From Rosistilla oblonga (GTDB lineage Bacteria > Planctomycetota > Planctomycetia > Pirellulales > Pirellulaceae), in assembly GCF_007751715.1 (NCBI RefSeq), contig NZ_CP036292.1, forward strand, positions 1,798,001 through 1,862,000: a DNA stretch of 64,000 bases. Reading direction: 5' to 3'. Positions 24,692-63,068 of the stretch are shown piece after piece. The translations under genes were made by a program, and so were the position numbers. Below the pieces are notes generated by a model. The model was not told the origin of the DNA, did no database searches, and saw only the letters and a list, made by a program, of their open reading frames with translations. Within the stretch, counting starts at the first letter, position 1; every line of letters starts with the position of its first letter.

Positions 24692-24747
24692 CCCGACTCG
24701 AAGTCGGGTAAAAATGAACCGACTGGTCGGCCAGTGCCTAGGCACTG
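24692..24747 (-). terminator. Hairpin cluster at the 3' end of the DUF2130 gene
   Basis: Two strong inverted repeats sit here. One is the perfect 16-bp palindrome CAGTGCCTAGGCACTG (24732-24747), which contains the gene's stop codon. The other is a 7-bp stem with a 3-nt loop, CCCGACT/AGTCGGG (24692-24708). On the minus strand the second stem is followed by CTCTTTAC, only a weak U tract, so the terminator function is tentative. Confidence 0.4.
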
Positions 24748-26000: not shown

Positions 26001-26048
26001 GGGCTTTCTTCTCGCTAGGGTTGAGTTAGTCAGTGTTGACACTCTTGC

Positions 26049-39688: not shown

Positions 39689-41212
39689 TCACACGTCCTT
39701 AGGAAATTGAGCACGGACCAGACTTTTCGCATGGTTTAGCATTAGTTCTCGCGGGTTTTCGTCGCGAGCGACAACCTTCAACCGTTCCTGCATTTTCCCT
39801 AATAGCTTCATGGATGTGGCGATTGGGTCCAAATCGCTACGCCCCAGTTCGCCGAGCGCTTCGCCGACAATAGAATCGAGTTCATGCTTCGGCCAGGCTT
39901 TTTCAACCCGATCTTTCCATTGGCGAATTATCGCAGTCTTGTATTCGTCTTCGTTCAGAAGTCTCAGGAAATTTCGAATGTCATGAAAGGCATCGGTCAG
40001 CTGACCGATCAACGTCGCAACACAAACCTCGTAATCGTGGCTTTGCGGCGTCAAACGCCCGACTGTTTTGTCAAACCATTGGCCTGCGATGTCAATTGTT
40101 GCTTGATCGGACTTCGAGGCGTACTGTAGCGAATGTTGCAGATAGGTTCTTAAGCGGCCGCTCACAGTTTTGATCTCCGATACTTGATCAGCCTGAACTT
40201 GCAGCCCTCCAGCGAGCTTTTCAAAGCTGAGAACATTCGGCCCGCCGCACTCAACCAGCATCATGTACGACCATGAAACTAAGCGGAAGAAGTCAAATTC
40301 AGAGCAACCTGAGCCGAGCGGACGTTGAGTAAATGTCTCAGCCCGTTGAGCAAAAAAGGGCGCTCCTATAAAGCTGGTTGTCAATTGATCAATCTGTTCG
40401 CGGATGCGAACGAGATCATTCCATCTTTGAATCAGTTCGTCGTGGGGGAGCGCCTTTATCCGGCTGACATTTCGCGGAGCGATGCAACTACGAACAAATT
40501 CAACTTCGAGTTCCCGGCCAGAATTCATCTCGCGAAAAATCCGACGCATTACGCTGTCAATTTCACCAATATCTCCTGGCCATGCGTGGTCGAGCAGAAG
40601 TTTGACTGACTCGATATTGAGCGAGTCCAATCCTCCGCGGCAAGAACGGGCAGCTAAGTGCAATTCGTAAACCAAGTCACCTATTCGTTGCGTCAATGTC
40701 GGATAGCGGAAACCGGTCGTGAAATCGGAGAAAATGCTACGAGTCTCCTCGAATGCAGCACAATCCTGTCCAATCAAGAGAATCTGCTTCTGAGCGAAGG
40801 GCAGCCAAGCTCTCAGGTAACGAGTAAGCCGCCGCTGTCCAGCATCGTCGAGATGATGAATGTTCTTGACGACGATCTTCATCTCATCGTGTTCGCAAAC
40901 GCTCCGATCAATTCCTTTTCCGAACAAGGAGTTGTGGTTGTGCTCGCCGCAACCGTCTTGAAGCACGATTGGGTTAATTGAAGGGAATTCCAATGCATTG
41001 ATCACAGCCTCGTCGATTCGCCGAGAGTTGCCATAGCGAACAAATAACAGGATCTTGGCTGGATTCGCTGACTGTTCCGCAACCTGCGCCGCCTTCAATT
41101 CGTCAACGAATTGCCGGATCTCATCAGACTGTCCGGCAAACGCTCGAAGATGAAGCCACTGAGACTCATCAGCAAGACGTTCCAGCAGCTCGTCAAAATC
41201 TGATTGATTCAT
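39689..41212 (-). CDS. Degenerate AAA (bEBP-like) protein paired with the SIR2/STAND gene
   Basis: A 507-residue protein. Its first half follows the layout of a sigma-54-activator AAA domain: ILLFVRYGNSRR where the P-loop should be, VVKNIHHLDDAGQRRLTRYL in the Walker B region, LTQRIGDLVYELHLA, and HAWPGDIGEIDSVMRRIF, which matches the WPGN(V/I)REL lid motif. The Gly-rich P-loop and Lys are missing, so ATP hydrolysis is doubtful. The second half is helical and unknown. It begins 4 nt after the SIR2/STAND gene, so the two are tightly coupled. A regulatory or adaptor role for the neighbour is the best guess. Confidence 0.6.
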   Translation of the reverse strand: MNQSDFDELLERLADESQWLHLRAFAGQSDEIRQFVDELKAAQVAEQSANPAKILLFVRYGNSRRIDEAVINALEFPSINPIVLQDGCGEHNHNSLFGKGIDRSVCEHDEMKIVVKNIHHLDDAGQRRLTRYLRAWLPFAQKQILLIGQDCAAFEETRSIFSDFTTGFRYPTLTQRIGDLVYELHLAARSCRGGLDSLNIESVKLLLDHAWPGDIGEIDSVMRRIFREMNSGRELEVEFVRSCIAPRNVSRIKALPHDELIQRWNDLVRIREQIDQLTTSFIGAPFFAQRAETFTQRPLGSGCSEFDFFRLVSWSYMMLVECGGPNVLSFEKLAGGLQVQADQVSEIKTVSGRLRTYLQHSLQYASKSDQATIDIAGQWFDKTVGRLTPQSHDYEVCVATLIGQLTDAFHDIRNFLRLLNEDEYKTAIIRQWKDRVEKAWPKHELDSIVGEALGELGRSDLDPIATSMKLLGKMQERLKVVARDENPRELMLNHAKSLVRAQFPKDV

Positions 41213-41216
41213 GGGC

Positions 41217-44200
41217 TCACGCCTTTCGAGCCGCCGTCACTAACCGAATTGGATCAGCAATCGTTCCCCGGAAATTGAATGCAATGCAAAAATCTTCTAG
41301 CGGTCGATTGCTTAGCATGGTTTGAGATTGAAACTCCGTCGGTCGGAAAATAATTTCTCGACGCAACGCAGGAACGTAAACCCATCCCTTATCCGTGTCT
41401 TCCGAGACGCGACGAATGGTTCCTTGGCATGGAATCGGCTCACCTCGCTCGTTACCCCAAACGCAGAGACGCACGACTCGGTAACGACCGGCCATCGTTG
41501 ACCGATCCAAAATCCGAAACTGGTCTTCACTTTCCCGATACTGGCCCGTTTGAAAAAGGGCCCAAGCGTAAAAGAACCTAGCTTTCAAACTCTCCTCGTC
41601 AGCAAACGTGATGCGACGATTTAGCCAATAGGCAAAGTGCTCCCATTGAGACTTGCTAAGTGGAACAGAACGTCGCTCGGACTCGTAGAGGTCAAGTTTT
41701 CCGAAACGTTGCCACCAGGCATTTGTATAAAGCCTGGCCAGTCGCAAATCGAGTTTTTCCTCAGCGGCTTCAATTCGCTCAAGCCCGCGCTCGATGTCAC
41801 CATCGGAACGCCAATTCCGTTGACTATCAAAAATTAAATTGCGTGCCAGCATATACTCACCAGCGGTTGACCCAAGTTTCGCAAGCTCTTCCAGTGCCTC
41901 TTCCTTGATTGATGGATCACCAAGGATATGCGAAAGTTCGATCCTGCGTTTGTTGTACTGCTCTTTGGATGATCGCCAAGATTCGTGGTCAAGGACATCA
42001 CACAAATCTGAAATCAGTTCAACTCGTTTGCCGCTACTCTGCCTGCCAACCAATCTTCCTCCATCCAATTCGTTCTTCGTCGCTTTGAATCGCACGTCCA
42101 GAGAGTAGTAGTTCTCGCTATCGAAGATTGCAGCTTGTGTGCAGTGACGAACCGCCTCATCGAATCCGGACCCGATCGCACCGCGGACTCTCGCTTCAAT
42201 CGGACTATCGGATGCCCGAGTCGCGATCTCTGACAAAATCTGTTGTGCGAGCACGCAGAGGCTTGCATACTCGTTGTGAACTCTCGAAAGGGGACGACGA
42301 TATCGCTTGTCGGATGCCTCGCTATAAGAATCTTCGGCTTGATTCAAAGCCGCCGCTGCCTTCTCGTAGTCTTGAATCAGACCTTTCGCGGCAGAATCAA
42401 GTTTTTCGAGGTCGTCCCACTCGACGTTATTCAGCTTTCGTAGCAACGCCTCGCGACGAAAGTAGCCTTCTTGAAAAGCGAGTCTTGGATTGGCACGTGT
42501 TCCGCTGCTCGCCAATATTTCGGCGATGACATCGGCAAGATCGAGTAAGTCGTTGTCTGTTGAAGTGCGAAGCGTGCTACTTGGGCCAATTGCGTTAAGC
42601 AAGCGAAGCGCAAAGTCCACCTCGAAGTTGTACGTCTGCCAATCTCCGGTGGCGCGGACCGATTTCAAAAGCGTTTTAAGAACATCGAATTGCTCCGCCG
42701 GTCGAAATTGGGTTCGGACTACGGTCTGAGCCTCCAATTGCTGCCGGGCGCCCAACGCGTGATTTCCATACTCGTCTTCCGTCCAACGGTAGACCGGAGT
42801 CTCGTTCAACGCCTGCCTAAGCACATCAAATCCCTCTTTGCCAAGGCATCGAAGGACGAGATCGACCGGAACATCCTGCCCGAAAAAGCTTGGAATTAGA
42901 ATCAAACCGTTGAGCTTCTGTACTTGCTCAGCGGCCACACCGGTAGCCGTGCGGAATTCGAGTTCTTCGGTTGCGTCGGTTTGTTCATTTTGGACACCTG
43001 CTTCGGCGAGGATAGATCCCAGCGTGCCCGTGGCAACCGGAACAGCAATCGACTGAGCTTGTAGTGATGCTTCCAGGCTGGAGTTATAAGTTTCCACCTC
43101 CGCCAGTAGGCCCAGCCGCAACCGACCACGAGATTCGGGGAGCAGTCTCCAAAGCCAAGCCCAGAAATTTGGATTCTCCAGATCGCCCGCAGAGATGTCT
43201 TCCACGATGCTACTGTCGAAACTCTTCAAATGCTCACGAAAGCGTTTCGCATCTGAGCCGGACATCATGATCGGAAACGGAATGCAGGTCGCGCCGGAAA
43301 ACTCTTCATACGATGACCCGACCACCAGGACCTTCCGCCCACGCGACGCCAGATAGGCTGCCAGCGAAGAATACTGCTCGCCCATTTGGGACGCATCCCA
43401 GACCAGCAATACTGAGGTGCTCTCCAGACGATCAAGCTCGGCAGAAATTCTTTCGACCAATCCCGCGTCGATGTCTGTTTGGTTACGACCGAAATAGAGC
43501 ACAGGCCATCCCCGTGAACGTGCGGAAATTGCCAAATCTGCAAGAGCGACCGACTTTCCAGAACCACTCTGCCCGGTGACGAGCACGGGCTCTTCGTTAA
43601 GCCTTTGTGCCTCCAGAGCCTCAAAAACGGTTTCCTTCAAGTCATCAAACTCTTGACGGCGAAAAGCCAATCCGGTCACGTGCGCCTGCCAGTCGGGGAC
43701 ACCGTGAGAACCGTAGAGGAAATCGCGAAATCGCCGGTACTTTTCATCCGTAGATGCAAAGTTATATTTCGTTTTCGCGTCGGCGTCGGTTAGCAGCGTG
43801 ACACCATTGGTCAATCGCCGCCATTCGGATGCCTTGAACACATGTCTCTTCTGATTGGGGAAAGTGAACTCAACACCCTCGACCCAACTGCGGCTAGTCT
43901 TAATTAACCCATGAATTTGGTCTTTGGGCAGAGAGTCCGCGGCCTGCCCCAACGTCATTGAATGCAAGGTGATCTTGTTCATCCTTTGCAGCAAATTGAT
44001 CTCTCTAACCTTGCCGGTGCGTTCGGTTGCGCCAAACAAGTGTGTCTGTCCCGAGCCCAATTTCGCGATTGCTTCTGCCAATACCTTCGTGTCTAACCAG
44101 TCGGCTTCATCCAATCCGTCGATGAAAAGCGTCCCGCGGGGTGTCACCAGCGTCGGCAGTTGCCGCAGCATCGTCGCAGCCACGCCGTCTCGCTCCAATT

Positions 44201-44669
44201 GCTCCATCTCATCTGTGGGTGGTTGCTCCCGCGACTCGTCACGCGTAACGCATCCAAACAACTTATACAGACTTAGCTTCACCCGGTTGCGCGGATCTGA
44301 AGGAAACGTGGTGTCGTCAAGCACCGGCGTGACCGATCGCCAATCGGCCGCCAAAGCCCGGTCAAGGACATCGTGAATGGACGATGTGAGAACACAATTC
44401 CAAGGCAGCGAAGTCAGCTTCTCCAAGTCATCTGGAACTGCAATGCGGCTACTGATGTCGTGCCAAATCGGCATGAGTGATTTTGCTTCACCGCAGTTCG
44501 CGATTAGATCGTCGTAGCTGTTAGCGGATTCTAAACCAAAGCGAGCTTGGCAGGTGCTCAAAAAGTAGTCCTCGCTGCCGTACTGTCGCAGCAAGTCCTG
44601 CCCCATCAGAAGCACTGCAGGCCCTTCTGACATACCAGCGAAGAGCTTTTCGTAGTCAAAGTCAGTCAT
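41217..44669 (-). CDS. SIR2-like / STAND NTPase with helical repeats
   Basis: A 1,150-residue protein. Residues about 15-145 have the order of a SIR2-like domain (VLLMGQDLL, LTSSIHDVLDRAL, LSLYKLFGC), but the usual catalytic Asn (TTNxD) is Ser and the His of KLHG is Phe138, so NAD hydrolysis may be lost. A STAND-type NTPase follows, with P-loop TGQSGSGKS (365-373) and VLLVWDAS as Walker B. From about 650 to 1,050 it is helical and TPR-like, as expected of a phage-sensing region. SIR2-STAND proteins (Avs5-type) are known anti-phage sensors; this one lies between hsdS and hsdR with a bEBP-like partner. It starts about 120 nt after hsdS; no shared promoter motif is seen there. Confidence 0.65.
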   Translation of the reverse strand: MTDFDYEKLFAGMSEGPAVLLMGQDLLRQYGSEDYFLSTCQARFGLESANSYDDLIANCGEAKSLMPIWHDISSRIAVPDDLEKLTSLPWNCVLTSSIHDVLDRALAADWRSVTPVLDDTTFPSDPRNRVKLSLYKLFGCVTRDESREQPPTDEMEQLERDGVAATMLRQLPTLVTPRGTLFIDGLDEADWLDTKVLAEAIAKLGSGQTHLFGATERTGKVREINLLQRMNKITLHSMTLGQAADSLPKDQIHGLIKTSRSWVEGVEFTFPNQKRHVFKASEWRRLTNGVTLLTDADAKTKYNFASTDEKYRRFRDFLYGSHGVPDWQAHVTGLAFRRQEFDDLKETVFEALEAQRLNEEPVLVTGQSGSGKSVALADLAISARSRGWPVLYFGRNQTDIDAGLVERISAELDRLESTSVLLVWDASQMGEQYSSLAAYLASRGRKVLVVGSSYEEFSGATCIPFPIMMSGSDAKRFREHLKSFDSSIVEDISAGDLENPNFWAWLWRLLPESRGRLRLGLLAEVETYNSSLEASLQAQSIAVPVATGTLGSILAEAGVQNEQTDATEELEFRTATGVAAEQVQKLNGLILIPSFFGQDVPVDLVLRCLGKEGFDVLRQALNETPVYRWTEDEYGNHALGARQQLEAQTVVRTQFRPAEQFDVLKTLLKSVRATGDWQTYNFEVDFALRLLNAIGPSSTLRTSTDNDLLDLADVIAEILASSGTRANPRLAFQEGYFRREALLRKLNNVEWDDLEKLDSAAKGLIQDYEKAAAALNQAEDSYSEASDKRYRRPLSRVHNEYASLCVLAQQILSEIATRASDSPIEARVRGAIGSGFDEAVRHCTQAAIFDSENYYSLDVRFKATKNELDGGRLVGRQSSGKRVELISDLCDVLDHESWRSSKEQYNKRRIELSHILGDPSIKEEALEELAKLGSTAGEYMLARNLIFDSQRNWRSDGDIERGLERIEAAEEKLDLRLARLYTNAWWQRFGKLDLYESERRSVPLSKSQWEHFAYWLNRRITFADEESLKARFFYAWALFQTGQYRESEDQFRILDRSTMAGRYRVVRLCVWGNERGEPIPCQGTIRRVSEDTDKGWVYVPALRREIIFRPTEFQSQTMLSNRPLEDFCIAFNFRGTIADPIRLVTAARKA

Positions 44670-52141: not shown

Positions 52142-52873
52142 CTAGTGACTAACGAGAGGGCTCGTAATCTGTCCGGCTTTGGCAGGATTTTGCTTCGTTG
52201 GTTTCTTGATGCCACCGCAACTGAGCGTCGCGCCGTCGATGAAGTGCATCGCGTCGAGTCCATAAACTCGTGATATGTCTTGCGTCGAGACAGCCGCCGC
52301 CTTGTGTAGCGACATGACCATCAACGGCGGGCACCAGTTGCCGACGGCCAGCTTGGAGCGAAAGTTAACAATCAATTGTGGACGGTCGTGAGCGATACGA
52401 GATTTGCGTTTCCCGAAGCCTCGCCCGCGATGGACGATACAATTCGGGTCGAGCAAGATGACACCTGCGATCGGCGCGTGTTGAGCGTCGACGCCCTTGC
52501 CAAGTTCGGCGAGGCGTTCTGGAACACAGAACGTGACGGCATCGTCTTGCCAAAGGGTCGAGCGAGTTCCAGAACAAGCCTCATCAAACCACTGTTCGTA
52601 AGCGACGCTGGCCCATGCCCGCGTCGCAGGGACGACGATCCATCGACCACCGACAGCGGATTCATTGATGCGACGCATGTTGTCGATCATGCGAGCGAAG
52701 GAAGGTACCCCACCGACGTACCAGCCCAGATCGTCTTCACCCATCGCCCGACACGTATTAGCATCCGTACAAACTGGGCCGAGGTATTTCTCGCCAAGGC
52801 GCGCGATTCGCGCGGCACGCATCAAAGGCGTCGGATAGAGTGATTCAAAATCGAGCTGAGTTGTTGTTTGCAT
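52142..52873 (-). CDS. Unknown protein next to the DUF1998 helicase
   Basis: 243 residues, no family recognised. The middle contains beta-strand-like stretches (GGRWIVVPATRAW, IAGVILLDPNCIVHRGRG, RPQLIVNFRSKL) separated by helices, as in an alpha/beta enzyme fold, and a late MVMSLHKAAAVSTQDISRVYG. It has its own sigma-type promoter (E), 114 nt upstream, and its last codons contain promoter D of the next unit, so the units are packed end to end. It follows the helicase gene in the same orientation and may act with it. Confidence 0.65.
   Translation of the reverse strand: MQTTTQLDFESLYPTPLMRAARIARLGEKYLGPVCTDANTCRAMGEDDLGWYVGGVPSFARMIDNMRRINESAVGGRWIVVPATRAWASVAYEQWFDEACSGTRSTLWQDDAVTFCVPERLAELGKGVDAQHAPIAGVILLDPNCIVHRGRGFGKRKSRIAHDRPQLIVNFRSKLAVGNWCPPLMVMSLHKAAAVSTQDISRVYGLDAMHFIDGATLSCGGIKKPTKQNPAKAGQITSPLVSH
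52149..52176 (-). promoter_or_regulatory. ECF-sigma-type promoter D (CCGGAC-N16-CGTTAG)
   Basis: A perfect consensus copy inside the last codons of the 52142-52873 gene, with its -10 53 nt before the 45-aa gene. Confidence 0.75.
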
Positions 52874-52986
52874 GTTTGGAGATGAATCCTTAGGTAAGTG
52901 CTAAGTTGGGTGGCCTGCCAGTACTTGGCGGACGCTCGGGCCGTGAAGTTCACAACCCGATTGCGTCAGTGAGCGACTGCTATTGT

Positions 52987-53014
52987 CTAACGAGGCGAAT
53001 CGCAGATCGTCCGG
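52987..53014 (-). promoter_or_regulatory. ECF-sigma-type promoter E (CCGGAC-N16-CGTTAG)
   Basis: A perfect consensus copy that starts 1 bp after the helicase stop codon, 114 nt before the 52142-52873 gene. Confidence 0.75.
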
Positions 53015-53015
53015 A

Positions 53016-55445
53016 TCAGCTTTCCTGTTTTTCACCACAGTTACTGCAGAAGCGGTCACCGATCTTCACCGGCGTTTCGCATGCGGCACACGGCTTCGTC
53101 GCTGGACCATCGTCCAGTGGCGATTCCGTTTCGTTCTCCGTCATCGTGCAGGTGCCAGCAAGCTCGTCACACAGCCGATTCAGAACGACTCGCGCGGCCT
53201 GTTTGCTGGTCGATTCGTTTGACAGCGGATTAGCGATGCATCGGAAGCAACCGCCGTCAGTGTCACAAGCACACTGATCAAGCCGTTCGATGGCCTTGTC
53301 GATCAGTTCGTGCATTCGATCGCAGGCAACAGTGGTCAAGCCGACTCCGTCGTAGACCATGTCGTACAGATAGATCGATGCGGAGCCGTCAGCGTCGACT
53401 TCCGAAGCCGACGAGAAGTCTTGCTTGTCGCAGGGACCGGAGACAGCGGGGAACAGTCCCCACAGCAACCGTTCACAAGACTGCAATGCGGTACGAGCGA
53501 CTTGGGTTCCGAGCTTGGCGGTGATCTCGTCCCAAAGTGGTTTACGCATGCGCAGCAGCGTCGCTTCGGTAGGCAAAGTGTGCGTCGGCATTCCCATGTT
53601 ACCGCTCCAGGAATTGACGATCTTGCCACTGCGGTCCTTCTCGGTCACGCTGACCAGAAACTCCGTCACGTTGATGTCAACGGTTGCCAGCATCACGTTA
53701 TCGTAATCTGCAATCTTGTGACGCCGTTTCAGTTTGATCTTCTTGTTGATGAAGGCTCGGGTCTCGTTCCACAAGTATTCCCGTTCGAGCAACACTTTTT
53801 TCTTTCCCCGGATCACGTCTTTGACCCGATACGCTTTGCCACCGTGGCGATAAATTGCATTTCGGTAAGCCTCGCGTAGTAGGTGGAATTCGTCGATCTC
53901 GCCGATCGAATCATCGTCCTTCCCGAAAACGAGTTTGTAGTTGCCTTCACCGATGCTGCGAATGTTGACGTGCTGATGCGGCTCGCTGCGGTAAAACACA
54001 TCCGAGTCGAGTTTGCCTTCAGAACGAACAATCTGCACGGCGGCGACATCCTCGCCGAGCACGGCTGCATCCAAGTTGTCCTCGTCGCCACCGACTTCTG
54101 CTGTGGCGCAGGCGTAGTGCTGGCAAACGACACGACGGTTGGAAGTGTTCAGCACCAACGGCTCGTTGTCTTTGGCGAACAATTCTTCAGGGTGATTTGA
54201 GTAGTACGTGTCGATTGGGGTGTCACCGGGGATCAATACGATGCCACCGTCCTTGCCCGCACGAGCAGCCCGGCCGGCACGTTGCCACAGGCTCATCATG
54301 CTGTTCGGTAATCCAATGCAGACAACGGCGTCGACTTCACCAATGTCGATTCCCAATTCGAGGGCACTGGTGGAAAAGACCAAGCGGACAGACTTGTCTC
54401 GCAAGCCATGTTCGATCTCTTCCCGCTCCATGGCCGAAAGTCCCGCTCGATAAACTCGTACGAATGGAAGATCGTTGTCATGGTGAGATAGCAAGCGAGC
54501 CATCATTCGCTCGGCGGCCATTCGCCCGGGACAGAAAGCCAGGACGGTAAGTCCTTCGTCAGCGAGTTTGAAGGCGAGTTTGCGACCGTAGTCGTAGAAG
54601 TGATCGTCACTGCTGGTCATCCAGAACTTGCGACGCCCTTGGCGGCTTCCGTCGATATCGGAACCGACACAACTGAAATCGACTCCCGTCAGTCGTTCCA
54701 TGTGCGACTGTGGTTCGTGGATCGTCGCACTGGTGGCGATAAAGGTTGGCTCGGAGCCGTGGACTTTGCAGACCTGGCGCAGCCGGCGCAGGATGTGTGC
54801 GACATTGGTGCCGAAGATCCCTCGGTACTCGTGGCATTCATCAATGACGACGTGCTTCAGATTTGCAAAGAAACGTGCCCAATGTGAGTCGTGGTACTGC
54901 AACATGGCGTAGTGCAGCATATCGGGATTTGTGAGGATCGCTTGCGCCTCGTCACGAATCTGTGGGCGATCGGCTTGGGGCGTCGCTCCGTCATATCGAC
55001 TGATGAAATGCGGACGATCGCCGACGAGTTTGGCGACCGAAGTTGTCAACTCAGCAAACTCTCGCAGTTTTAGCAACTGATCGTTGGCGAGTGCCTTTTG
55101 TGGATACAGGAACAGTGACGTTGAGTCAGAGTTGCTACAGAGCTCGTTCAAAATTGGCAGTGAAAAGATCAACGATTTGCCACTGGAGGTGCGTGTCGCC
55201 ACGACAGTGTTGTCACCGGCAAGGATGCGAGCCACGGCTTCGTGCTGATGGCGATACAAGCCGTCGGGGAAACGAGAACGAATCAGTTGCATTGCATCTG
55301 GGTGAAGTTTCAACGACTCAGATGGGCAGAAAACGCCTTTCGTCGGTTCTTGCACCGCCGGATCGTGATGCAGTTGCGATCCTTCCATGGCGGTGATGGC
55401 GTCAGCGATTCGGTCGATGATGGTTTGGTTGGCGACGGTATTCAT
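53016..55445 (-). CDS. DEAD/DEAH-type helicase with DUF1998 (MrfA/YprA-like)
   Basis: 809 residues from ATG 55445. Superfamily 2 helicase motifs: RTSSGKS (85-91), VVIDECHEYRG with the unusual DECH box (202-205), ATSATIHEP, and in the second RecA domain FSTSALELGIDIG and WQRAGRAARAGKDGG. The C-terminal DUF1998 part has the four-Cys cluster CACDTDGGCFRC, as in MrfA/YprA, a DNA-repair helicase. A separate zinc ribbon ends the protein (CAACETPVKIGDRFCSNCG). DUF1998 helicases also form part of DISARM (DrmA/DrmB), but no other DISARM gene is present. The frame extends to 55535; promoter F, whose -10 is 50 nt from ATG 55445, supports the shorter form. Confidence 0.85.
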   Translation of the reverse strand: MNTVANQTIIDRIADAITAMEGSQLHHDPAVQEPTKGVFCPSESLKLHPDAMQLIRSRFPDGLYRHQHEAVARILAGDNTVVATRTSSGKSLIFSLPILNELCSNSDSTSLFLYPQKALANDQLLKLREFAELTTSVAKLVGDRPHFISRYDGATPQADRPQIRDEAQAILTNPDMLHYAMLQYHDSHWARFFANLKHVVIDECHEYRGIFGTNVAHILRRLRQVCKVHGSEPTFIATSATIHEPQSHMERLTGVDFSCVGSDIDGSRQGRRKFWMTSSDDHFYDYGRKLAFKLADEGLTVLAFCPGRMAAERMMARLLSHHDNDLPFVRVYRAGLSAMEREEIEHGLRDKSVRLVFSTSALELGIDIGEVDAVVCIGLPNSMMSLWQRAGRAARAGKDGGIVLIPGDTPIDTYYSNHPEELFAKDNEPLVLNTSNRRVVCQHYACATAEVGGDEDNLDAAVLGEDVAAVQIVRSEGKLDSDVFYRSEPHQHVNIRSIGEGNYKLVFGKDDDSIGEIDEFHLLREAYRNAIYRHGGKAYRVKDVIRGKKKVLLEREYLWNETRAFINKKIKLKRRHKIADYDNVMLATVDINVTEFLVSVTEKDRSGKIVNSWSGNMGMPTHTLPTEATLLRMRKPLWDEITAKLGTQVARTALQSCERLLWGLFPAVSGPCDKQDFSSASEVDADGSASIYLYDMVYDGVGLTTVACDRMHELIDKAIERLDQCACDTDGGCFRCIANPLSNESTSKQAARVVLNRLCDELAGTCTMTENETESPLDDGPATKPCAACETPVKIGDRFCSNCGEKQES

Positions 55446-55494
55446 CGGGTTTCGGGGGGCCTCAGATGGAGCGATCGGGTTTGTCTGAGGCTTG

Positions 55495-55522
55495 CTAACG
55501 AATTGGTTTGATTTTTGTCCGG
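55495..55522 (-). promoter_or_regulatory. ECF-sigma-type promoter F (CCGGAC-N16-CGTTAG)
   Basis: A perfect consensus copy in the divergent gap between the helicase and the plus-strand sigma/Lon operon, reading toward the helicase. Confidence 0.75.
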
Positions 55523-55622
55523 GACGGCAAATCATTTTTGTTCCAGGGGGCTCCGTGCCCCTAAAAGTGATGCATTACAATCTTGCGAATGAATGACTAG
55601 CGCAAAACGCATAGGGCCTGCA

Positions 55623-56066
55623 ATGAAGCAATCGCATAAGGATGACCAATACGAACAGACTGGTGTTCAAGACCAGCCCGACAAAGCAAGGATGCTGTTG
55701 CACAGCATTTACGAAGCTCCCGACAAAAGCTTCTGGAAGATTCCTGAGAAGGAACCGAACAGCTCGCACCCTGGAATTTGTTGGCACGTCGATCAGGACA
55801 CCGGTAAAGCGGTGATGTTTAAGGGAACCAGCCAGCAACCCAAGAAGGCTCGGTATCTGATTAGTTACGCGGTTTTGGCTCCGAATGAATCCAACGGTTT
55901 GGATGCAACAACCTACTTCCGCGTTGACGAACCACGCTTGCCTCGGGTTCGACAGCTCGAATTGATGCATCACGATCGCCTCCGTGGTTCGCTTGCTGCT
56001 CACGACGTTGCGGAAATTGAGTTGGCTCTCAACGAGCTGAAGGGAGCGAGCCATGTCGACGGGTGA
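55623..56066 (+). CDS. MazF/PemK-like small protein, first gene of the sigma-Lon operon
   Basis: 147 residues from ATG 55623 (the frame also allows ATG 55593). The order of elements fits a MazF/PemK beta-barrel: HPGICWHVDQDTGKAVMFKGTS near the start, then TYFRVDEP, and a last helix after LRGSLAAHDVAEIELALNEL, as in the family's C-terminus. Catalytic activity is uncertain. It overlaps the next gene by 14 nt. In the CRISPR-linked Calp system a MazF-like protein (CalpT) is the anti-sigma that Lon cleaves; by position and fold this protein is one candidate for that role. A TACAAT near 55576 might be a -10 of a housekeeping promoter. The fold call is by eye. Confidence 0.5.
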   Translation: MKQSHKDDQYEQTGVQDQPDKARMLLHSIYEAPDKSFWKIPEKEPNSSHPGICWHVDQDTGKAVMFKGTSQQPKKARYLISYAVLAPNESNGLDATTYFRVDEPRLPRVRQLELMHHDRLRGSLAAHDVAEIELALNELKGASHVDG

Positions 56067-57108
56067 TGACACCGTGTTTACAGAACACGTCAAGCAACTC
56101 GGCACTGGGACGACAGAAATCCCGGACGTGGTCCGCAAGAAATTGGCGGCGCGGTTGAAGTCGATGATTCGCAAGCGAGGTTTGGCGAATCTCTCCGCAA
56201 CAACGTTTGGCTATTCAGGGAAATTTCTGGGTGACGCTGTGACTCTGGACGAAGTTATGGATGATGCGTACTGCCATCTGTTCTTCGGTACCGGAGCGCG
56301 TGCTGGTAAGCAGTTTGCATTTCTGCAGAAACAAGTCGAAACGGGCAACGCAATTGATCCGCTGATACAAAAAGAGTTATTTCGTTTTGTGCACGACCTG
56401 CACCGCAATGCTTTTCCAAACGATTCAGCGATCTACAAAAACGTGCTGGCTGCTGCGAAAATGCTTGTTGACGATCCTGAGAATGACGTTTCATTGCGTG
56501 ACGGTAATGATCGCAAGCCGAATCTAGCTTCGGTGTTAAAGATGTCTGGTGACGCTCAGAATTTCGCAGAGACTGCATTGATAGAACGCGCCATTCGCGG
56601 AAACGACGGATGGCACAAAACTCTTGGGCTAGTTCGCCGATTTAGTAAGAAAGCGACCTGTGGCGTCTCAGAAGGCACGCTGGCAATGATGCATCAGGGC
56701 ACTCGCCCGTTGCTCTTGCAACTTCTGAAAGAATCGATTTCGGATCTCGCGTATGATCCTATCGAAACAGCCGCGATGACGTCTGCGGCGGACTTTACTG
56801 GTGAAGACACAAAAGGTCCGGAATTTGTCCGGACGATTCTGGACGAAGACCGTTACGAAGTGAGGCAATCCAAGGTTGACGAGTTTGTCCACGAGGGACG
56901 GCGAGCAATCAAATCACTGGGCTGCAATAACACCACCACAGAAACGCTGCTCGAAATCCTTCACTGCTATGCCGAGAAATGCCGGCGATGTGCTTGTGAT
57001 GAATACATCTCGCAAGAGCAAGTGCGCAAGGACATCGGCCTAAAAAAGCAGACCATGAGTGACTACATGGGCAAATTGAGGGCAGCTCTGGAGACAATAA
57101 AATCATGA
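56053..57108 (+). CDS. Sigma-factor-like DNA-binding protein
   Basis: 351 residues. The first part resembles ECF sigma region 2: VTLDEVMDDAYCHLFF in place of the (D/E)DxxQExF helix, then FVHDLHRNAFPNDSAIYKN in place of the WLxxIxxN segment. The last 50 residues resemble sigma region 4 with a helix-turn-helix (ISQEQVRKDIGLKKQTMSDY). It is longer than typical ECF factors, with an extra middle domain of about 120 residues. The gene is flanked by a MazF-like gene, a 288-aa unknown (ATGA overlap) and a Lon-like protease, the setting expected of a CalpS-type sigma factor. If correct, it is the obvious candidate to recognise the nine GGAC-N16-CGTTA promoters. A different HTH regulator remains possible. 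Confidence 0.5.
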   Translation: MSTGDDTVFTEHVKQLGTGTTEIPDVVRKKLAARLKSMIRKRGLANLSATTFGYSGKFLGDAVTLDEVMDDAYCHLFFGTGARAGKQFAFLQKQVETGNAIDPLIQKELFRFVHDLHRNAFPNDSAIYKNVLAAAKMLVDDPENDVSLRDGNDRKPNLASVLKMSGDAQNFAETALIERAIRGNDGWHKTLGLVRRFSKKATCGVSEGTLAMMHQGTRPLLLQLLKESISDLAYDPIETAAMTSAADFTGEDTKGPEFVRTILDEDRYEVRQSKVDEFVHEGRRAIKSLGCNNTTTETLLEILHCYAEKCRRCACDEYISQEQVRKDIGLKKQTMSDYMGKLRAALETIKS

Positions 57109-57971
57109 AGCCAAACCACGACACTTTCGCGGAGTTGCTCAATCAAGGCCTTGAAATCCAGAATGCGATTGCATCAACTCAGGCTTCCCGTTCGGAACGT
57201 ATTGAATCGGGCGACTTATTCCTCTTGAAGATGCCAATCCCAGCTTCGGTGACTTGGTGTGCTGCCTTCAGCCATTCCAAGGACAGCGATCTTTGGTACT
57301 GCGTCCCTGGTGATTCCTTTTCACTCTTGGCAAATTGCGATGTTGCTTCGGATGAAACAGAACACACGATGCCGCTCAATTTCCGCTGTCGTTGTGGACT
57401 TTGGATCCATTCGGAAGACATCGATGTCTCCAATCGAATTAGCCAACTGACCGAGGACATTGTTGTCGCTCTTCGTGACAAAGTGGCCGCGTTGGCGGAC
57501 GACCCAATCGCTCTGTTGTCTGGGGATGAAATCGGAAGCGATCCCGATTACGAGAATTGGATTGATGAACTTCGAATCGCTGTTGATTCGCTTCGAGAAT
57601 CACTGCACGATGAACCCACAATTTCGGTTCGGCTGGTTGATCGTAAGTCAGAACTCGCATTGACTCAGCTTGAGCTGGCTCTTGCAGCGGCGGACAATGA
57701 TCCGGAGATTGAGCTTCCGACGCTGATCAGAACGCTGCAGGTTTTCAAGTCGATCGACGGGCTCTTAAAAGCGTGTCTCTACGATGATGGCCTTGTTCTG
57801 GAATGGCACCCGTCTGACGAGGAATCGTCGAAGCCGACGATCGCATCGCACGGGACCGAGCTGGCATGGACACCCCAGGATGGTTCTTTTTGTACGGGAC
57901 TTATCGTGTGGGTGAACGGGGCAGTCGTTGTAACGGTCAATCACGAACTTGTCCAAATCGCAAAGGACTGA
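57105..57971 (+). CDS. Unknown 288-residue protein between sigma-like and Lon-like genes
   Basis: No family is recognised with confidence. Residues about 35-110 (ESGDLFLLKMPIPASVTWCAAF, then DLWYCVPGDSFSLLANCDV) look like a beta-barrel opening such as MazF or an SH3-like fold; the middle is acidic and helical, and the end is beta-like (LAWTPQDGSFCTGLIVWVNG). Its ATG overlaps the sigma-like gene's stop by 4 nt, the tight coupling expected of a sigma/anti-sigma pair, and its size (about 32 kDa) is close to that of CalpT. It is therefore the second candidate for the protease-cleaved anti-sigma. The Lon-like gene follows after 9 nt. Confidence 0.55.
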   Translation: MKPNHDTFAELLNQGLEIQNAIASTQASRSERIESGDLFLLKMPIPASVTWCAAFSHSKDSDLWYCVPGDSFSLLANCDVASDETEHTMPLNFRCRCGLWIHSEDIDVSNRISQLTEDIVVALRDKVAALADDPIALLSGDEIGSDPDYENWIDELRIAVDSLRESLHDEPTISVRLVDRKSELALTQLELALAAADNDPEIELPTLIRTLQVFKSIDGLLKACLYDDGLVLEWHPSDEESSKPTIASHGTELAWTPQDGSFCTGLIVWVNGAVVVTVNHELVQIAKD

Positions 57972-57980
57972 GGTAGAAAC

Positions 57981-59840
57981 GTGCTGGGCGTACAGTCGAT
58001 TGAACCGGATTCCGTTTGGGCGAAAACGAATCCGGTATGGTGTTACAATGAATTCATCCAAAAAGAGAAGGCAAAGAACCGGGGGGCTCGCGGGCTTCAG
58101 GTTCGACTCGCGAACTGGATCAGCAAGGCGCAAGCGGAGGGAGTAAGATTTCCACATGAACTGTGGAGAGAATTCTTCTGCTTGACTCCACCACCTGTCT
58201 GGCAGCCTCCCATGGAGCGACCAGGCGTTATCGGTCTGTTGAAAGGTGACCACGGCGGTTTGGATCAACCGACTGGATTTGCAACTCAGATTTCCGCTGC
58301 TGACTCAAGTGAAGGCTGGCAAGCGTATCGGCTGCCATTTCAATCGCATCATATCGAAGATGCGCTTTCCAGGTTGCTTCATGCAGCCCACGTGGATTTG
58401 GATGCGGTGGTTCCAGAAGCACGGGCGTTCACTATCACGGACTCGTTGAAGCAGTCACCGCAGGGATCGTCGATCAACATCGCCGCTTTGCTTGCCGTGA
58501 TTGACACCTGGAACGACAACGGGCGTGGCAAAGAGCCGGACTTGCTACGGTGTTGCTGCTCGTTCGTGAAGCCGAAAGACAACCTTCTGAAATCCGTAGG
58601 TTCCATACGGATAAAGCTCGATGCCTTTATTCGTGAGTACGGGCATGGAAGTTTGGTTGTTTGCACCACTGAAGCGGCTAGCGAGTTCCAATTGCGCAAG
58701 CACTTCGAGCATGTTTGGAAGGTTGATTCTTTTGCTGACCTAGCACACAAGATGCTCAATACTGACTTGCTGAAACCATTGCTCTCCAAGCACGCGATGT
58801 CGTTAAATGCGGTCACGGAAGCTGCTAAGGTGATTGAGCGGATACGGCGATCTGTTGGTGGAAGCGAAGCAGCACTCGAATTTGCCGACCGCATGCAAAA
58901 TGCTGTTTCGCAAGGAGGTGCTGCCAGTCTTCGTGTCTCCCAACGTTCGAGTGAAGTACTCGAAAACGTCCATCGACACATTGGGAACTTCGCGGAAGCG
59001 TATCGACATTCTCGACTTGCAGTAGACTCACTTAGTCAGCTCGGTGAGCATGCGAGCTTCCAAGAGTTGGCTGAGGCGAACGCTCGCTTGGGGTCCGCGA
59101 TGTTTGACGCGCACCGGATTCACGAAGGAGCGGAGGTGCTGAGCGAACTGGTTGACGAAGCTGAAATGCACCCTCGCCTCTTGAGTGCGGAATCGAGAGT
59201 CATGCTCTTCAATACGCACGCGAGACTGTTGGCGGCTGCCGGGCTCGAAGGTTGGGAACGCTTGTTCCGAAAATCGATTTATCTACAGGAATTGGTAGAG
59301 CCATCCAGTATCGCTCGAACTCGGTGTTACCTGGTCCATGCATGTCTTCACAATAGATTGCCGGAAGACGCTGAACGGGAGTTGCGATGGTTCGACACCA
59401 ACGCAGTTTCCGATGAATCGAAGCCATTCGTCAGCTTTTACCGTGCCGATCTCTATCGCCGCGATCCAAACTTTGGGCCAGCGTTTAAACAGGACGATCT
59501 ATTCGAGCGTATTGGCCGCAACCACGCATTTGCGTTTTATCTCCAGGCAACGGCAAGACAGCCTGACCGAAGCCCTGAAGATCGCGAACACAGACTTGCG
59601 TGGGCCAGCGACATTTTGACAAATGAACGCGGGAAGCAGAAAGGACAGAACCTACTTCACCTGTATTCGCTGTTTATCAATCTTGCCAAACAAGACGCAG
59701 ATGAAACATCAATCAAAGCAAAGATTGATAAGGTTTTCATTGATAGCGGAGACAACGCATTGAATGAATGGTACAGCGAATCACTGGCGAAATCGTCTGA
59801 AGAGACGGAACCGCTTTTCAATCGAGTACCTCATTTCTGA
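57981..59840 (+). CDS. Lon-like serine protease domain fused to TPR-like repeats
   Basis: 619 residues from GTG 57981, with GAGG 7 nt upstream. Residues about 80-260 follow the order of a Lon (S16) protease domain: GVIGLLKGDHGG for the opening strand, GSSINIAALLAVID where Lon has GPSAGIAMATAL (candidate nucleophile Ser164), VGSIRIKLDAF where Lon has GGLKEKLLAA (candidate Lys212), then LVVCTTEAASEF for VLIPEEN. The Ser-Lys distance is 48 residues, against 43 in E. coli Lon. No AAA or SAVED domain is present; residues about 290-600 are TPR-like helices, a plausible sensor. It lacks the Gly after the active Ser (SIN for SAG), so activity must be shown. It lies 43 nt upstream of mcrB. Confidence 0.6.
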   Translation: MLGVQSIEPDSVWAKTNPVWCYNEFIQKEKAKNRGARGLQVRLANWISKAQAEGVRFPHELWREFFCLTPPPVWQPPMERPGVIGLLKGDHGGLDQPTGFATQISAADSSEGWQAYRLPFQSHHIEDALSRLLHAAHVDLDAVVPEARAFTITDSLKQSPQGSSINIAALLAVIDTWNDNGRGKEPDLLRCCCSFVKPKDNLLKSVGSIRIKLDAFIREYGHGSLVVCTTEAASEFQLRKHFEHVWKVDSFADLAHKMLNTDLLKPLLSKHAMSLNAVTEAAKVIERIRRSVGGSEAALEFADRMQNAVSQGGAASLRVSQRSSEVLENVHRHIGNFAEAYRHSRLAVDSLSQLGEHASFQELAEANARLGSAMFDAHRIHEGAEVLSELVDEAEMHPRLLSAESRVMLFNTHARLLAAAGLEGWERLFRKSIYLQELVEPSSIARTRCYLVHACLHNRLPEDAERELRWFDTNAVSDESKPFVSFYRADLYRRDPNFGPAFKQDDLFERIGRNHAFAFYLQATARQPDRSPEDREHRLAWASDILTNERGKQKGQNLLHLYSLFINLAKQDADETSIKAKIDKVFIDSGDNALNEWYSESLAKSSEETEPLFNRVPHF

Positions 59841-59883: not shown

Positions 59884-62025
59884 ATGTTTACCTGGAAACC
59901 GATCTATTCCGAAATCACAGCCAAGCTGTCTGAGTTTTCATCCGAGAACGAGAAGCTGGTACAAATGATGATCCGCTTACACGAGCAGGGATTGAAGGTC
60001 TCTCCCGTCGCGGACGAATACCCGGCGGGAACGAAGGTTCCGCTTGACGAGACCGACCCGTTTTCGTTCATGGCGATATTCAATCGTGGCGTCACGGACG
60101 AAAATCGCATCGCCATTTTGCGAGCAATTAGGGATGAGTGGGGAATTGCCGCCGAACTGCCGAGCGACTTCGACGGGCTGCCCGTGGTGAATTCACAGAA
60201 CAGTTGGTTCATGCCGTACAAGTACAAGCGAACGGTGGACCATGTCGCGACTCTTTGGCGATTCTTTCTTCATGTACTTTCAATCGAAAACGAAAGTCAG
60301 CTCGACACATCCTTGTTCGATAAATGCCGGGCACTCAATGGTGTCGGATCGGCATCGCTGACGATGGGCATGTTTTGGTGCCGGCCTGATATCTGGATCT
60401 CGGTGGACAAAAAGAATCGAGCCAGCGCTGCGACCGAGGGAATCAACCTCAAGATTAAGACAGGCGCAGACTACCTTCGATGGCTTGGATTGGTCAAAGA
60501 AGCCTTCCAGATGCCCACGGTAGAGTTTTCACATCAAGCTCACCTCGATTTCGTTTCCGTTGATCCGCTCGAGGACGACGACAAAAATGGTGAAGGTGAC
60601 GAGCGTGGTGGTGCCCTCCCGCACGGCGTTCGCAACTATTGGCTCCTCGCCCCTGGTCCAGGTGCGGGCCTGTGGGACGTTTGGTACGAGCGGTCGATCG
60701 GCGCGATTGGCTGGAATGAGATGGGCGACCTGCAGGAGTACGACTCAAAGCAAGCCATCGCGCAGTACATTCCGGAACTCTCGCCCGATTCCGGTCCGGC
60801 GAGCGTTGCACCCATGCTGTGGGAGTTTGCTCACGTGCTGAAGCCTGGTGATGTCGTGTTTGCCAAGCTTGGACTGCACAAGGTTTGCGGTTGGGGAATC
60901 GTTGTCGGAGACTACACCTACGACGAGAACGAAGAACCGTTCCACAACCTCCGCAAGATCGAATGGCAGGATGCCACCGAAGTCAGCATGCCAACCGGCA
61001 ATCAGTTGCCGTTGAAGACATTGACTCGGATGACAGGCAAACGCAAATTCTTGGATCCGATGGCGGATGCCTATGATGGTGTGTCGGGATTGGAACGAGT
61101 TGGAGGAACCTGCAGTGGCGGTGGCCCTGGTGCAGGCCGAGTTGCCGGCACAGAATACAAACTGACCGATGCGATGGACGACCTGTTCATGCCGGTCGAT
61201 GAAGTCCAGCAGTGCGTTGAGCTTCTTCGGCACAAGAAAAACCTCGTCCTTCAGGGCGCTCCGGGGACTGGCAAGACGTTCGTTGCGAAACGACTCGCGT
61301 ATCTGTTGATGCAACGCAAAGACAATTCACGCGTTCAAATGATCCAGTTTCATCAGTCCATGACGTACGAAGATTTCGTCCAAGGCTACAAACCGTCGGC
61401 CGATGGTGGATTTAAACTGGAAGATGGAACATTCCACAGGTTCGTCTCGTCGGCAATGACGAAGCCTGACGTGCCGTTCGTATTTATCATTGACGAAATC
61501 AACCGCGGCAACTTATCGAAGGTTTTTGGCGAGCTGATGATGTTGATCGAGCCGGATAAGCGAACCTCGGATTTCGCGATCCCACTGAGCTATTCGTCGG
61601 ATCCTGAAGCGACGTTCTACGTTCCGCCGAACGTGCATTTGATCGGCACAATGAATACGGCGGACCGGTCGCTGTCGATGGTGGACTACGCCCTACGCCG
61701 ACGATTCTCATTCGTTGAACTTGAACCTGGTTTCCAATCGAAAGTGTTCGCTCAACACCTAATGAATGCAGGCGCCTCCGAAGATTTGGTCGCCAGAATT
61801 CGCCAACGTATGAAGTTGCTCAACGAAGCGATCAAGAGTGACGAATCGAATCTCGGGAAGGGCTATCAGATCGGGCACAGCTTCTTCGTCCCGCCGGAGG
61901 GACAAACGGCCAATGAACAGTGGATGAAACGCGTGCTTGCCTTCGAGATCAAGCCGTTGATTGAAGAATATTACTGCGATGACCCTGCCGGTCGGCAAAC
62001 CGCAATCGAAACGATTCTCGAATGA
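59884..62025 (+). CDS. mcrB: McrB-type GTPase/AAA subunit with EVE/PUA-like domain
   Basis: 713 residues. The AAA motor has Walker A LQGAPGTGKT (about 456-465), Walker B FIIDEINRGN (about 534-543) and GTMNTADRSLSMVDYALRRRF, all McrB-type; NTADRS is the family signature. Residues about 250-385 (NYWLLAPGPGAGLWDVWYE, GAIGWNEMGDL, PGDVVFAK) read as an EVE/PUA-like domain, which in modified-DNA restriction enzymes reads altered bases. The N-terminal part is unknown. The frame is open from 59764 but would overlap the previous gene; I chose ATG 59884 (MFTWKPIYSEI). The 4-nt overlap with mcrC (ATGA) confirms the pair. Confidence 0.88.
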   Translation: MFTWKPIYSEITAKLSEFSSENEKLVQMMIRLHEQGLKVSPVADEYPAGTKVPLDETDPFSFMAIFNRGVTDENRIAILRAIRDEWGIAAELPSDFDGLPVVNSQNSWFMPYKYKRTVDHVATLWRFFLHVLSIENESQLDTSLFDKCRALNGVGSASLTMGMFWCRPDIWISVDKKNRASAATEGINLKIKTGADYLRWLGLVKEAFQMPTVEFSHQAHLDFVSVDPLEDDDKNGEGDERGGALPHGVRNYWLLAPGPGAGLWDVWYERSIGAIGWNEMGDLQEYDSKQAIAQYIPELSPDSGPASVAPMLWEFAHVLKPGDVVFAKLGLHKVCGWGIVVGDYTYDENEEPFHNLRKIEWQDATEVSMPTGNQLPLKTLTRMTGKRKFLDPMADAYDGVSGLERVGGTCSGGGPGAGRVAGTEYKLTDAMDDLFMPVDEVQQCVELLRHKKNLVLQGAPGTGKTFVAKRLAYLLMQRKDNSRVQMIQFHQSMTYEDFVQGYKPSADGGFKLEDGTFHRFVSSAMTKPDVPFVFIIDEINRGNLSKVFGELMMLIEPDKRTSDFAIPLSYSSDPEATFYVPPNVHLIGTMNTADRSLSMVDYALRRRFSFVELEPGFQSKVFAQHLMNAGASEDLVARIRQRMKLLNEAIKSDESNLGKGYQIGHSFFVPPEGQTANEQWMKRVLAFEIKPLIEEYYCDDPAGRQTAIETILE

Positions 62026-63068
62026 ATCCAGTGCCAGCAACCAGCATCCCCATCCAGAACGTCTACTACCTTCTCGCCTACGCGTGGGATCATTTCCGCA
62101 CGGGTGACGAAGTGGATATCGACCAATCCCAGTGTCCCGACGCCCACAATCTGCTCGCGATGCTGCTTTGTGGTGGGATTCGGCGGCTGGCAACGAAGGG
62201 GATGGATAAAGACTATCGCCAATTCACCGAAACGACGCCACGTTTACGAGGTCGCGTGGACGTACTGGCAAGTCATCGTCGGATGACGCACGTATCAGGG
62301 AAAATGATTTGCGAGTTCGACGAACTGACCGCAGACACGTTACCGAACCAGGTTCTCAAAGCCACTTGTCGCCGGCTGAATCGGTTCTCGATGCATCTGA
62401 GCAAAGACAATCGCAAACAAGTTCGACATTGTCTTGACCTATTGGCCGATATCAGCGACATCCGGCTTGCGAGTCGGGCTTTTCATCGGGTTCAGTTGCA
62501 TCGCAACAATCGCCACTATCGACTGCTGATGCACGTTTGCCAAATGCTTCACAGTCTGTTTCTTCCGGACCAGCAATCGGGAACGCACCGCTTCCGCGAC
62601 GTACTAGCTGAAGAAACCGTGATGCACCGTGTCTTTGAGTCGTTTGTCCGGCAATTTGCTGTGAAGCATTGCCCAGATGCGAAAGTATCAGCCATGAAGA
62701 TCGCCTGGCACGGCGAATGGGAGGACGACGTCAACTCAGTGCTACCGACAATGCTCACCGACGTGACGCTGAGCCGACCGACCCGGAAGACCATCCTCGA
62801 CTGCAAATTTTATAAGGAAGCGTTGGTCACACGTCACAATCGCCACCGACTCCATTCATCGCATCTCTATCAGCTGATGGCTTATCTTAACAACAAATCA
62901 ATCGACGAAGGATGGGAAACCGTCGACGGCATCTTGCTTTACCCCGCCGTGAACCATCACCTCGATCTATCGTTCTCGCTACTTTCCCACGACATCGCGA
63001 TCCGCAGCATCGACCTTGACCAAAACTGGCCGTTAATTCACCAGCGTTTGCTGGACGTCTTGAGCTGA
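62022..63068 (+). CDS. mcrC: McrC nuclease subunit
   Basis: 348 residues with the McrC layout: an N-terminal start of the type IPIQNVYYLLAYAW, then a helical middle, and a C-terminal PD-(D/E)xK nuclease with D247 (LTDVTL), D260-x-K262 (ILDCKFY) and a later QLMAYL helix. All key residues are present, so cleavage activity is likely. It forms a two-subunit type IV restriction enzyme with McrB, cutting DNA with modified bases. It is the last gene of the plus-strand operon that begins with the MazF-like, sigma-like and Lon-like genes, so this nuclease may be made together with the proposed switch. Confidence 0.88.
   Translation: MNPVPATSIPIQNVYYLLAYAWDHFRTGDEVDIDQSQCPDAHNLLAMLLCGGIRRLATKGMDKDYRQFTETTPRLRGRVDVLASHRRMTHVSGKMICEFDELTADTLPNQVLKATCRRLNRFSMHLSKDNRKQVRHCLDLLADISDIRLASRAFHRVQLHRNNRHYRLLMHVCQMLHSLFLPDQQSGTHRFRDVLAEETVMHRVFESFVRQFAVKHCPDAKVSAMKIAWHGEWEDDVNSVLPTMLTDVTLSRPTRKTILDCKFYKEALVTRHNRHRLHSSHLYQLMAYLNNKSIDEGWETVDGILLYPAVNHHLDLSFSLLSHDIAIRSIDLDQNWPLIHQRLLDVLS

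Follow-up and report, generated by a model that had tools for sequence, protein, structure and literature searches.

The window analyzed here is a stretch of 64,000 nucleotides (nt) from Rosistilla oblonga (assembly GCF_007751715.1, contig NZ_CP036292.1, positions 1,798,001 to 1,862,000 of the forward strand), and our subject is a cassette of four genes within it that may encode a sigma factor switch operated by a protease. The four open reading frames (ORFs), listed in Table 1, are open and tightly packed: the genes for the MazF-like and the sigma-like protein overlap by 14 nt, the latter overlaps by 4 nt with the gene for a protein that we call X, and a gap of 9 nt separates X from the protease gene. 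An earlier reading of the letters alone, hereafter the sequence-only reading, had seen here the same three kinds of component as in the CRISPR-associated Calp system, a MazF homologue, a sigma factor and a Lon protease. As far as profiles can tell, these kinds were named correctly, but the reading omitted X, which is conserved and in one relative is fused to the protease.

Table 1 Genes of the cassette and its flanks, with positions in the window
Feature	Position	Strand	Basis or remark
Predicted MazF/PemK-fold protein, 157 aa	55593..56066	+	Profile match to PemK; residue counts
Sigma-factor-like protein, 351 aa	56053..57108	+	Region 2-like N-terminal part, long middle, region 4-like C-terminal helix-turn-helix
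X, 288 aa, without family	57105..57971	+	Alignable in window, L005, L018 and L020
Lon-like protease with TPR-like repeats, 619 aa, GTG start	57981..59840	+	Ser164, Lys212
McrB-like AAA protein, outside the conserved cassette	59884..62025	+	AAA_5 E 6.6e-27; NCBIfam McrB E 7.1e-97, below model cut-off
McrC-like protein	62022..63068	+	Pfam McrBC E 1.7e-33; NCBIfam McrC E 2.7e-93, just below model cut-off
YprA/MrfA-type helicase with MZB domain, divergent from the cassette	53016..55535	-	Pfam DEAD, Helicase_C, MZB

The protease family was found in seven loci, namely the window, L005 (metagenome-assembled genome (MAG) HKST-UBA26), L014 (a second copy in the same MAG), L006 (Rhodopirellula sallentina SM41), L013, L018 (a Gemmataceae MAG) and L020 (a Kuenenia MAG); for the MAG loci, the binning of contigs comes without guarantee. 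The order MazF-like, sigma-like, X, protease is kept in four of these seven (window, L005, L018 and L020), which indicates linkage beyond chance, and the search for this gene order in other planctomycetes, advised with the sequence-only reading, was thereby rewarded. The six proteases in the alignment are 30-33% identical to its first sequence, and among the four complete loci the corresponding values are 16-23% for the sigma-like protein, 23-29% for X and 26-36% for the MazF-like protein. L006 (L006:5072-7938) has an open protease ORF and only remnants of the genes for sigma and X, next to which a transposase-like ORF is seen by eye upstream of the protease. L013 retains only a 5'-truncated protease. 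L014 contains a sigma-like ORF and the protease, together with two other ORFs, of 284 and 398 aa. The proteins of 284 and 398 aa, which have no assignment, occupy the place expected for the MazF-like protein and X, and this operon (L014:4177-11842) adjoins ORFs that, by eye, resemble Ser/Thr kinase, PP2C phosphatase and vWA genes.

Scans of single proteins against Pfam, NCBIfam and PADLOC gave nothing convincing for any of the four cassette proteins. Since hmmscan of single proteins returned no Lon, sigma70 or PemK match, we compared profiles with profiles in hhalign. The reference alignments, for which genomes were fetched, comprised 22 PemK sequences (23 of 30 loci were taken, and one was left out because of stops in the extracted frame, probably due to a wrong offset), 30-31 Lon sequences (30 of 30 loci, with L059 added in one set) and 20 sequences of extracytoplasmic function (ECF) sigma factors (20 of 20 regions). 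Column shuffles, reversed templates and cross-family templates served as controls, and shuffles without output were excluded from the counts (1 of 120 per ECF run in one series, 2 of 150 in two runs). In a matrix that included reversed and other-family templates, the expected family was the best match for the MazF-like protein, both parts of the sigma-like protein and the protease.

Against the 22 PemK sequences, the MazF-like profile scored 42.5 with an HH probability of 92%, and none of 120 shuffles reached this score, which strongly supports a MazF/PemK fold for the 157-aa protein, as the sequence-only reading had proposed. Single members, encoded by ORFs of 124-157 aa in the window, L005, L018 and L020, gave no Pfam PemK match with hmmscan. 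The catalytic residues of MazF are an Arg, that of the RP motif, and a Thr. All 22 references have this Arg, but all four cassette members, that of the window included, have His in its place, while the Thr position holds Thr in all four (16 Thr and 6 Ser in the references). The change from Arg to His in every member fits a binding role rather than an RNase role. The MazF-like gene adjoins the sigma-like gene in all four complete loci. Compared with the two additional proteins of L014, the MazF-like profile was matched in score by 3 of 100 shuffles for the 284-aa protein, over 8 columns only, and by 92 of 100 for the 398-aa protein; compared with X, the count was 18 of 100.

The sigma-like proteins measure 343-354 aa. 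Their N-terminal part aligned with ECF region 2 at a score of 22.9 and their C-terminal part with ECF region 4 at 27.7, scores that none of 148 and none of 150 shuffles reached, respectively, whereas the swapped pairs were at background (14 of 150 and 31 of 148 shuffles). The sigma-like protein of L014 on its own scored 30.0 against region 2, with none of 119 shuffles reaching that value. When the sigma-like profile was searched against the PDB, a sigma-4-like UPF0122 protein ranked first (E 0.09) and SigW second (E 0.61), and hmmscan found no sigma70 Pfam match among the single proteins. These results point with moderate strength to a sigma-like family, with matches first to ECF region 2 and then to region 4. 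The sequence-only reading had staked its sigma-like component on the protein not falling into a non-sigma family; the searches did not place it in one, and the component is upheld, modestly. When the N-terminal part of the cassette protein was compared with the L014 protein, none of 150 shuffles reached the score, yet the alignment was out of register and we did not use it.

In the 619-aa protein, a Lon-like domain occupies approximately residues 75-275 and is followed by TPR-like repeats. Ser164 and Lys212 (window numbering) are invariant in six of six members, the truncated L013 protein being excluded from these counts, and hhalign placed both the serine of the Lon GPS motif and the Lon lysine in register with them. 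The domain scored 19.6, 19.7 and 21.5 against three Lon templates; of 150 shuffles, 2, 1 and 0, respectively, did at least as well, and in a separate run 1 of 120 and 2 of 120 shuffles reached the score of the protease domain. We conclude, from a weak score, that the domain is probably Lon-like with a Ser-Lys dyad; no other fold, the outcome that would have spoken against the sequence-only reading, emerged, and its Lon-like component stands in this modest form. TPR families were matched weakly (E<=1) by four of the six members, at best TPR_12 with an E value of 0.0004. The protease of the window itself gave no Pfam TPR match, and we infer its TPR-like part from its relatives. Neither SAVED nor CHAT was found in any of the six members at E<=1, in a scan that also misses Lon, so that a very divergent SAVED or CHAT domain could escape it. 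TPR-like repeats instead of a SAVED sensor, as the sequence-only reading had it, agree with these results.

Protein X has no Pfam match in any of its four members, and PDB searches with X, the protease or the MazF-like protein led to nothing beyond chance matches, designed proteins and repeat proteins. A single ORF of 810 aa in L018 (L018:3958-6390) joins the N-terminal part of X to the protease, and we propose that X is an adaptor or regulatory partner of the protease. Its score against the 398-aa protein of L014 was reached by 2 of 100 shuffles, and that against the 284-aa protein by 66 of 100. A second MazF fold was considered for X, with a PemK score of 17.6 that 1 of 120 shuffles reached, and was dropped because a reversed ECF template scored nearly as high, at 17.5.

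The cassette is rare and recurs in distant planctomycetes. All the following genome counts of the protease, the sigma-like and the MazF-like protein include the genome of the window. Searched with a single sequence, the protease was found in 1 of 392 evenly drawn genomes of the phylum; its profile matched 3 of the 392, two of them generic TPR proteins by inspection, and 5 of 241 genomes of the family, one through the TPR part alone. A single-sequence search detected the sigma-like protein in 3 of 199 genomes of the family and a profile search in 1 of 392 of the phylum, and the MazF-like profile matched 2 of 265 phylum genomes, one match being judged chance. A pattern scan of genome contigs, which can overlook relatives, yielded 5 loci among 145 candidate stretches, three of which the searches of whole genomes had already revealed. 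Not counted were the TPR matches L142 and L143, generic TPR proteins by inspection; a MazF-like match in G121 (E 0.0098), antisense to another ORF and judged to be chance; and G480 (L015), where the protease profile matched in the TPR part only (E 8.3e-5). Searches of plasmids and phages by tblastn with the protease and the sigma-like protein, and of viral contigs with the protease and the MazF-like protein, found no relative.

The cassette occupies the same place beside the helicase in the window and in L005, and its degree of divergence was compared with that of its neighbors (window 52142-59840 versus L005 1280-8953). Identity is 76% for the helicase (over 802 aa), which has the same position in both, 56% for the neighboring 243-aa protein, 72% for a 726-aa protein of the island, of which 576 aa were compared, and 44% for a SEC-C protein. 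The cassette proteins are only 25-31% identical. This pattern suggests either rapid evolution of the cassette or its replacement in situ by distant versions. No YprA/MrfA-type helicase was seen in the L018 and L020 stretches. The 243-aa protein (52142-52873 in the window), which adjoins the helicase in both loci, belongs to no family in Pfam or PADLOC.

Rich in defence genes, the window forms a defence island that includes type I restriction genes and encodes a GmrSD-HNH protein, an nSTAND NTPase, an SMC-like ATPase and a SEC-C protein. Provided that its start is the ATG at 59884, in an ORF open from 59764, the McrB-like gene begins 43 nt beyond the protease stop, and it may be co-transcribed with the cassette. 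Residues ~252-364, in the N-terminal part of the McrB-like protein, match PADLOC PDC-S02 models, possibly as a reader of modified bases. A scan for promoters and terminators remained at or near background. A DUF2130 coiled-coil protein (Pfam match, 24738-26042) lies in the same island as the Lon-TPR gene; a copy with 46% identity is located directly downstream of the Lon-TPR gene in L020 (L020:11713-13329), and another is seen by eye approximately 2.3 kb from the protease in L013 (L013:1524-2732). Elsewhere in the window are an nSTAND_NTPase5 protein of 1150 aa and, after it, one of 507 aa that has no Pfam match (39689-44669) and, on the minus strand at 2-23365, an ORF of 7788 aa that runs off the window and shows GGxGxD-type repeats by eye.

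Two CRISPR-linked systems offer a model for how such proteins might work together. As described in excerpts of PMC11417357, CalpL of the Calp system cleaves the anti-sigma factor CalpT, leading to release of CalpS, and in the CASP system, according to excerpts of PMC10028731, the TPR-CHAT protein Csx29 cleaves a sigma inhibitor. In view of these parallels, a sigma switch operated by a protease is the best reading of the cassette, and we predict by analogy, with a probability of roughly 0.45, that it is a stand-alone switch of this kind in a defence island; its trigger would most likely differ from those of Calp and CASP. The MazF-fold protein would keep the sigma factor from acting, in the manner of CalpT with CalpS, and X would partner the TPR-Lon protease; the first pairing is suggested by the adjacent genes and the second by the fusion in L018. 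A cue related to infection, sensed through the TPR repeats or X, would activate the Lon domain, which would cut the inhibitor, either the MazF-like protein or X, and the freed sigma factor would then transcribe its own operon and perhaps neighboring defence genes. Protease activity, the identity of the inhibitor, the cue and the regulon are inferred parts of this scheme. More tentatively, we suggest that the switch is independent of CRISPR, that the TPR-Lon protease and X sense infection directly and free the sigma factor from its MazF-fold inhibitor, and that the cassette diversifies rapidly or is swapped, always in one position next to a conserved YprA-type helicase, as would be expected of a sensor in an arms race.

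Several results weigh against a protease-operated sigma switch. The sigma matches cover just 28-30 columns, a plain ECF hidden Markov model gave at most 2.0 bits for five sigma-like proteins, partly in the wrong places, and in single-protein hmmscan two of the four sigma-like members weakly matched a generic helix-turn-helix family. For the protease, the HH probability for Lon is only 1.3-2.4%, the highest shuffle reached 23.4 against a true score of 19.7 for one Lon template, and none of the six single proteins has a Pfam Lon_C match. L014 contains a sigma-like protein and a protease without a recognizable MazF-like protein or X, and the fusion of X to the protease in L018 argues against X as a substrate that is simply consumed. 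Nor did the upstream regions share a convincing promoter motif: a search for dyads found a single one in three of the five regions, against a mean of 0.27 and a maximum of 2 in 60 shuffles, and it was not used.

The MazF-like protein could instead be an RNase toxin that is silenced by the 351-aa protein or X until, upon infection, the protease cuts the inhibitor and growth stops, the helix-turn-helix protein being an antitoxin or repressor. The well-supported MazF fold and the conserved Thr would agree with this, as would the generic helix-turn-helix matches, and excerpts of PMC9704534 contain an early reading of CRISPR-Lon and CRISPR-T in which a MazF-like toxin is freed by a protease. However, the loss of the RP-motif Arg in all members and the ordered match to ECF regions 2 and 4 speak against a protease-activated toxin, which we regard as rather unlikely. 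The adjacent McrBC genes, and type I restriction genes both in the window and, by eye, beside L020, raise another explanation, in which the cassette times the expression of McrBC or type I systems and proteolysis serves turnover rather than the sensing of infection. But no McrBC ORF is seen by eye in the L018 and L020 stretches (the L005 contig ends 1.3 kb past the protease), nor any restriction gene by eye in the 12.7 kb of L018, and such a role in restriction appears improbable. Just as improbable, in our judgment, is a merely superficial likeness to Calp, in which case the 619-aa protein would be an inactive TPR scaffold, either derived from Lon or unrelated to it, and the 351-aa one an ordinary helix-turn-helix protein. 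The low Lon profile score and the lack of single-protein matches to Lon_C and sigma70 families would be expected in that case, but not catalytic Ser and Lys residues that are invariant and in register with Lon, or expected families that are the best matches while cross-scores are lower.

As the sequence-only reading had noted, there is no CRISPR locus in the window: neither the window nor the six related loci contain an exact 18-mer in at least three copies at CRISPR-like spacing, a search that left the rest of the genome aside. Cas1 had no match in the 7.25-Mb genome either (0 of 1, with controls found in 9 of 14), in a search that did not include Cas10 and Cas7-11 themselves. In the parts of the open-access literature available to us, including parts of PMC12458937 and PMC11229360, we found no description of a CRISPR-free cassette of Lon-TPR protease, sigma factor and MazF-like protein, and in PMC7159879 a search for the terms Lon, sigma and MazF gave no match. 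Calp and CASP suggest that sigma factors freed by proteases are a general antiviral output, and both depend on the detection of RNA by CRISPR. A CRISPR-free chromosomal version, if true, would mean that this output module originated with other sensors or was passed on to them, and it would provide a small four-gene system of which sensor, protease, inhibitor and sigma factor can be tested singly. Because Pfam, NCBIfam and PADLOC recognize no part of it, routine annotation would overlook such cassettes.

Among known systems, CASP (type III-E, Cas7-11/Csx29/Csx30/CASP-sigma) shares with the cassette a TPR-bearing protease, a sigma factor and further conserved genes, and also the logic proposed here, proteolytic relief of a sigma inhibitor, whereas the cassette protease is Lon-like without a CHAT match, and neither Cas1 in the genome nor an array in the window accompanies it. 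EACC2-caspase systems, in excerpts of PMC8195603 a predicted CRISPR-free conflict system with a caspase, an ECF sigma factor and a TPR protein, resemble the cassette as a combination of protease, ECF sigma factor and TPR outside CRISPR, but use a caspase instead of Lon and have other partner domains. With MazF/PemK toxins, the MazF-like protein has the fold in common but not the RP-motif Arg. Closest in composition is the arrangement of Calp, where a Lon-like protease N-terminal to a sensor-like region, a MazF-fold protein and a sigma-like factor are likewise encoded together, and of the features that define Calp the cassette shows the Lon domain with Ser-Lys dyad and ECF regions 2 and 4, both as modest matches. 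Calp is linked to type III CRISPR, and its CalpT is a 33-kDa MazF-related anti-sigma factor that is cut into parts of 23 and 10 kDa, whereas the MazF-like ORFs of the cassette are short, the protease has TPR-like repeats and no SAVED match, X is an additional conserved gene, and the sigma-like protein measures 343-354 aa. Without SAVED, CRISPR linkage and a two-part CalpT, the cassette is not a member of Calp; the likeness is fair as an analogy, and by that analogy the release of a sigma factor by a protease is a plausible mechanism.

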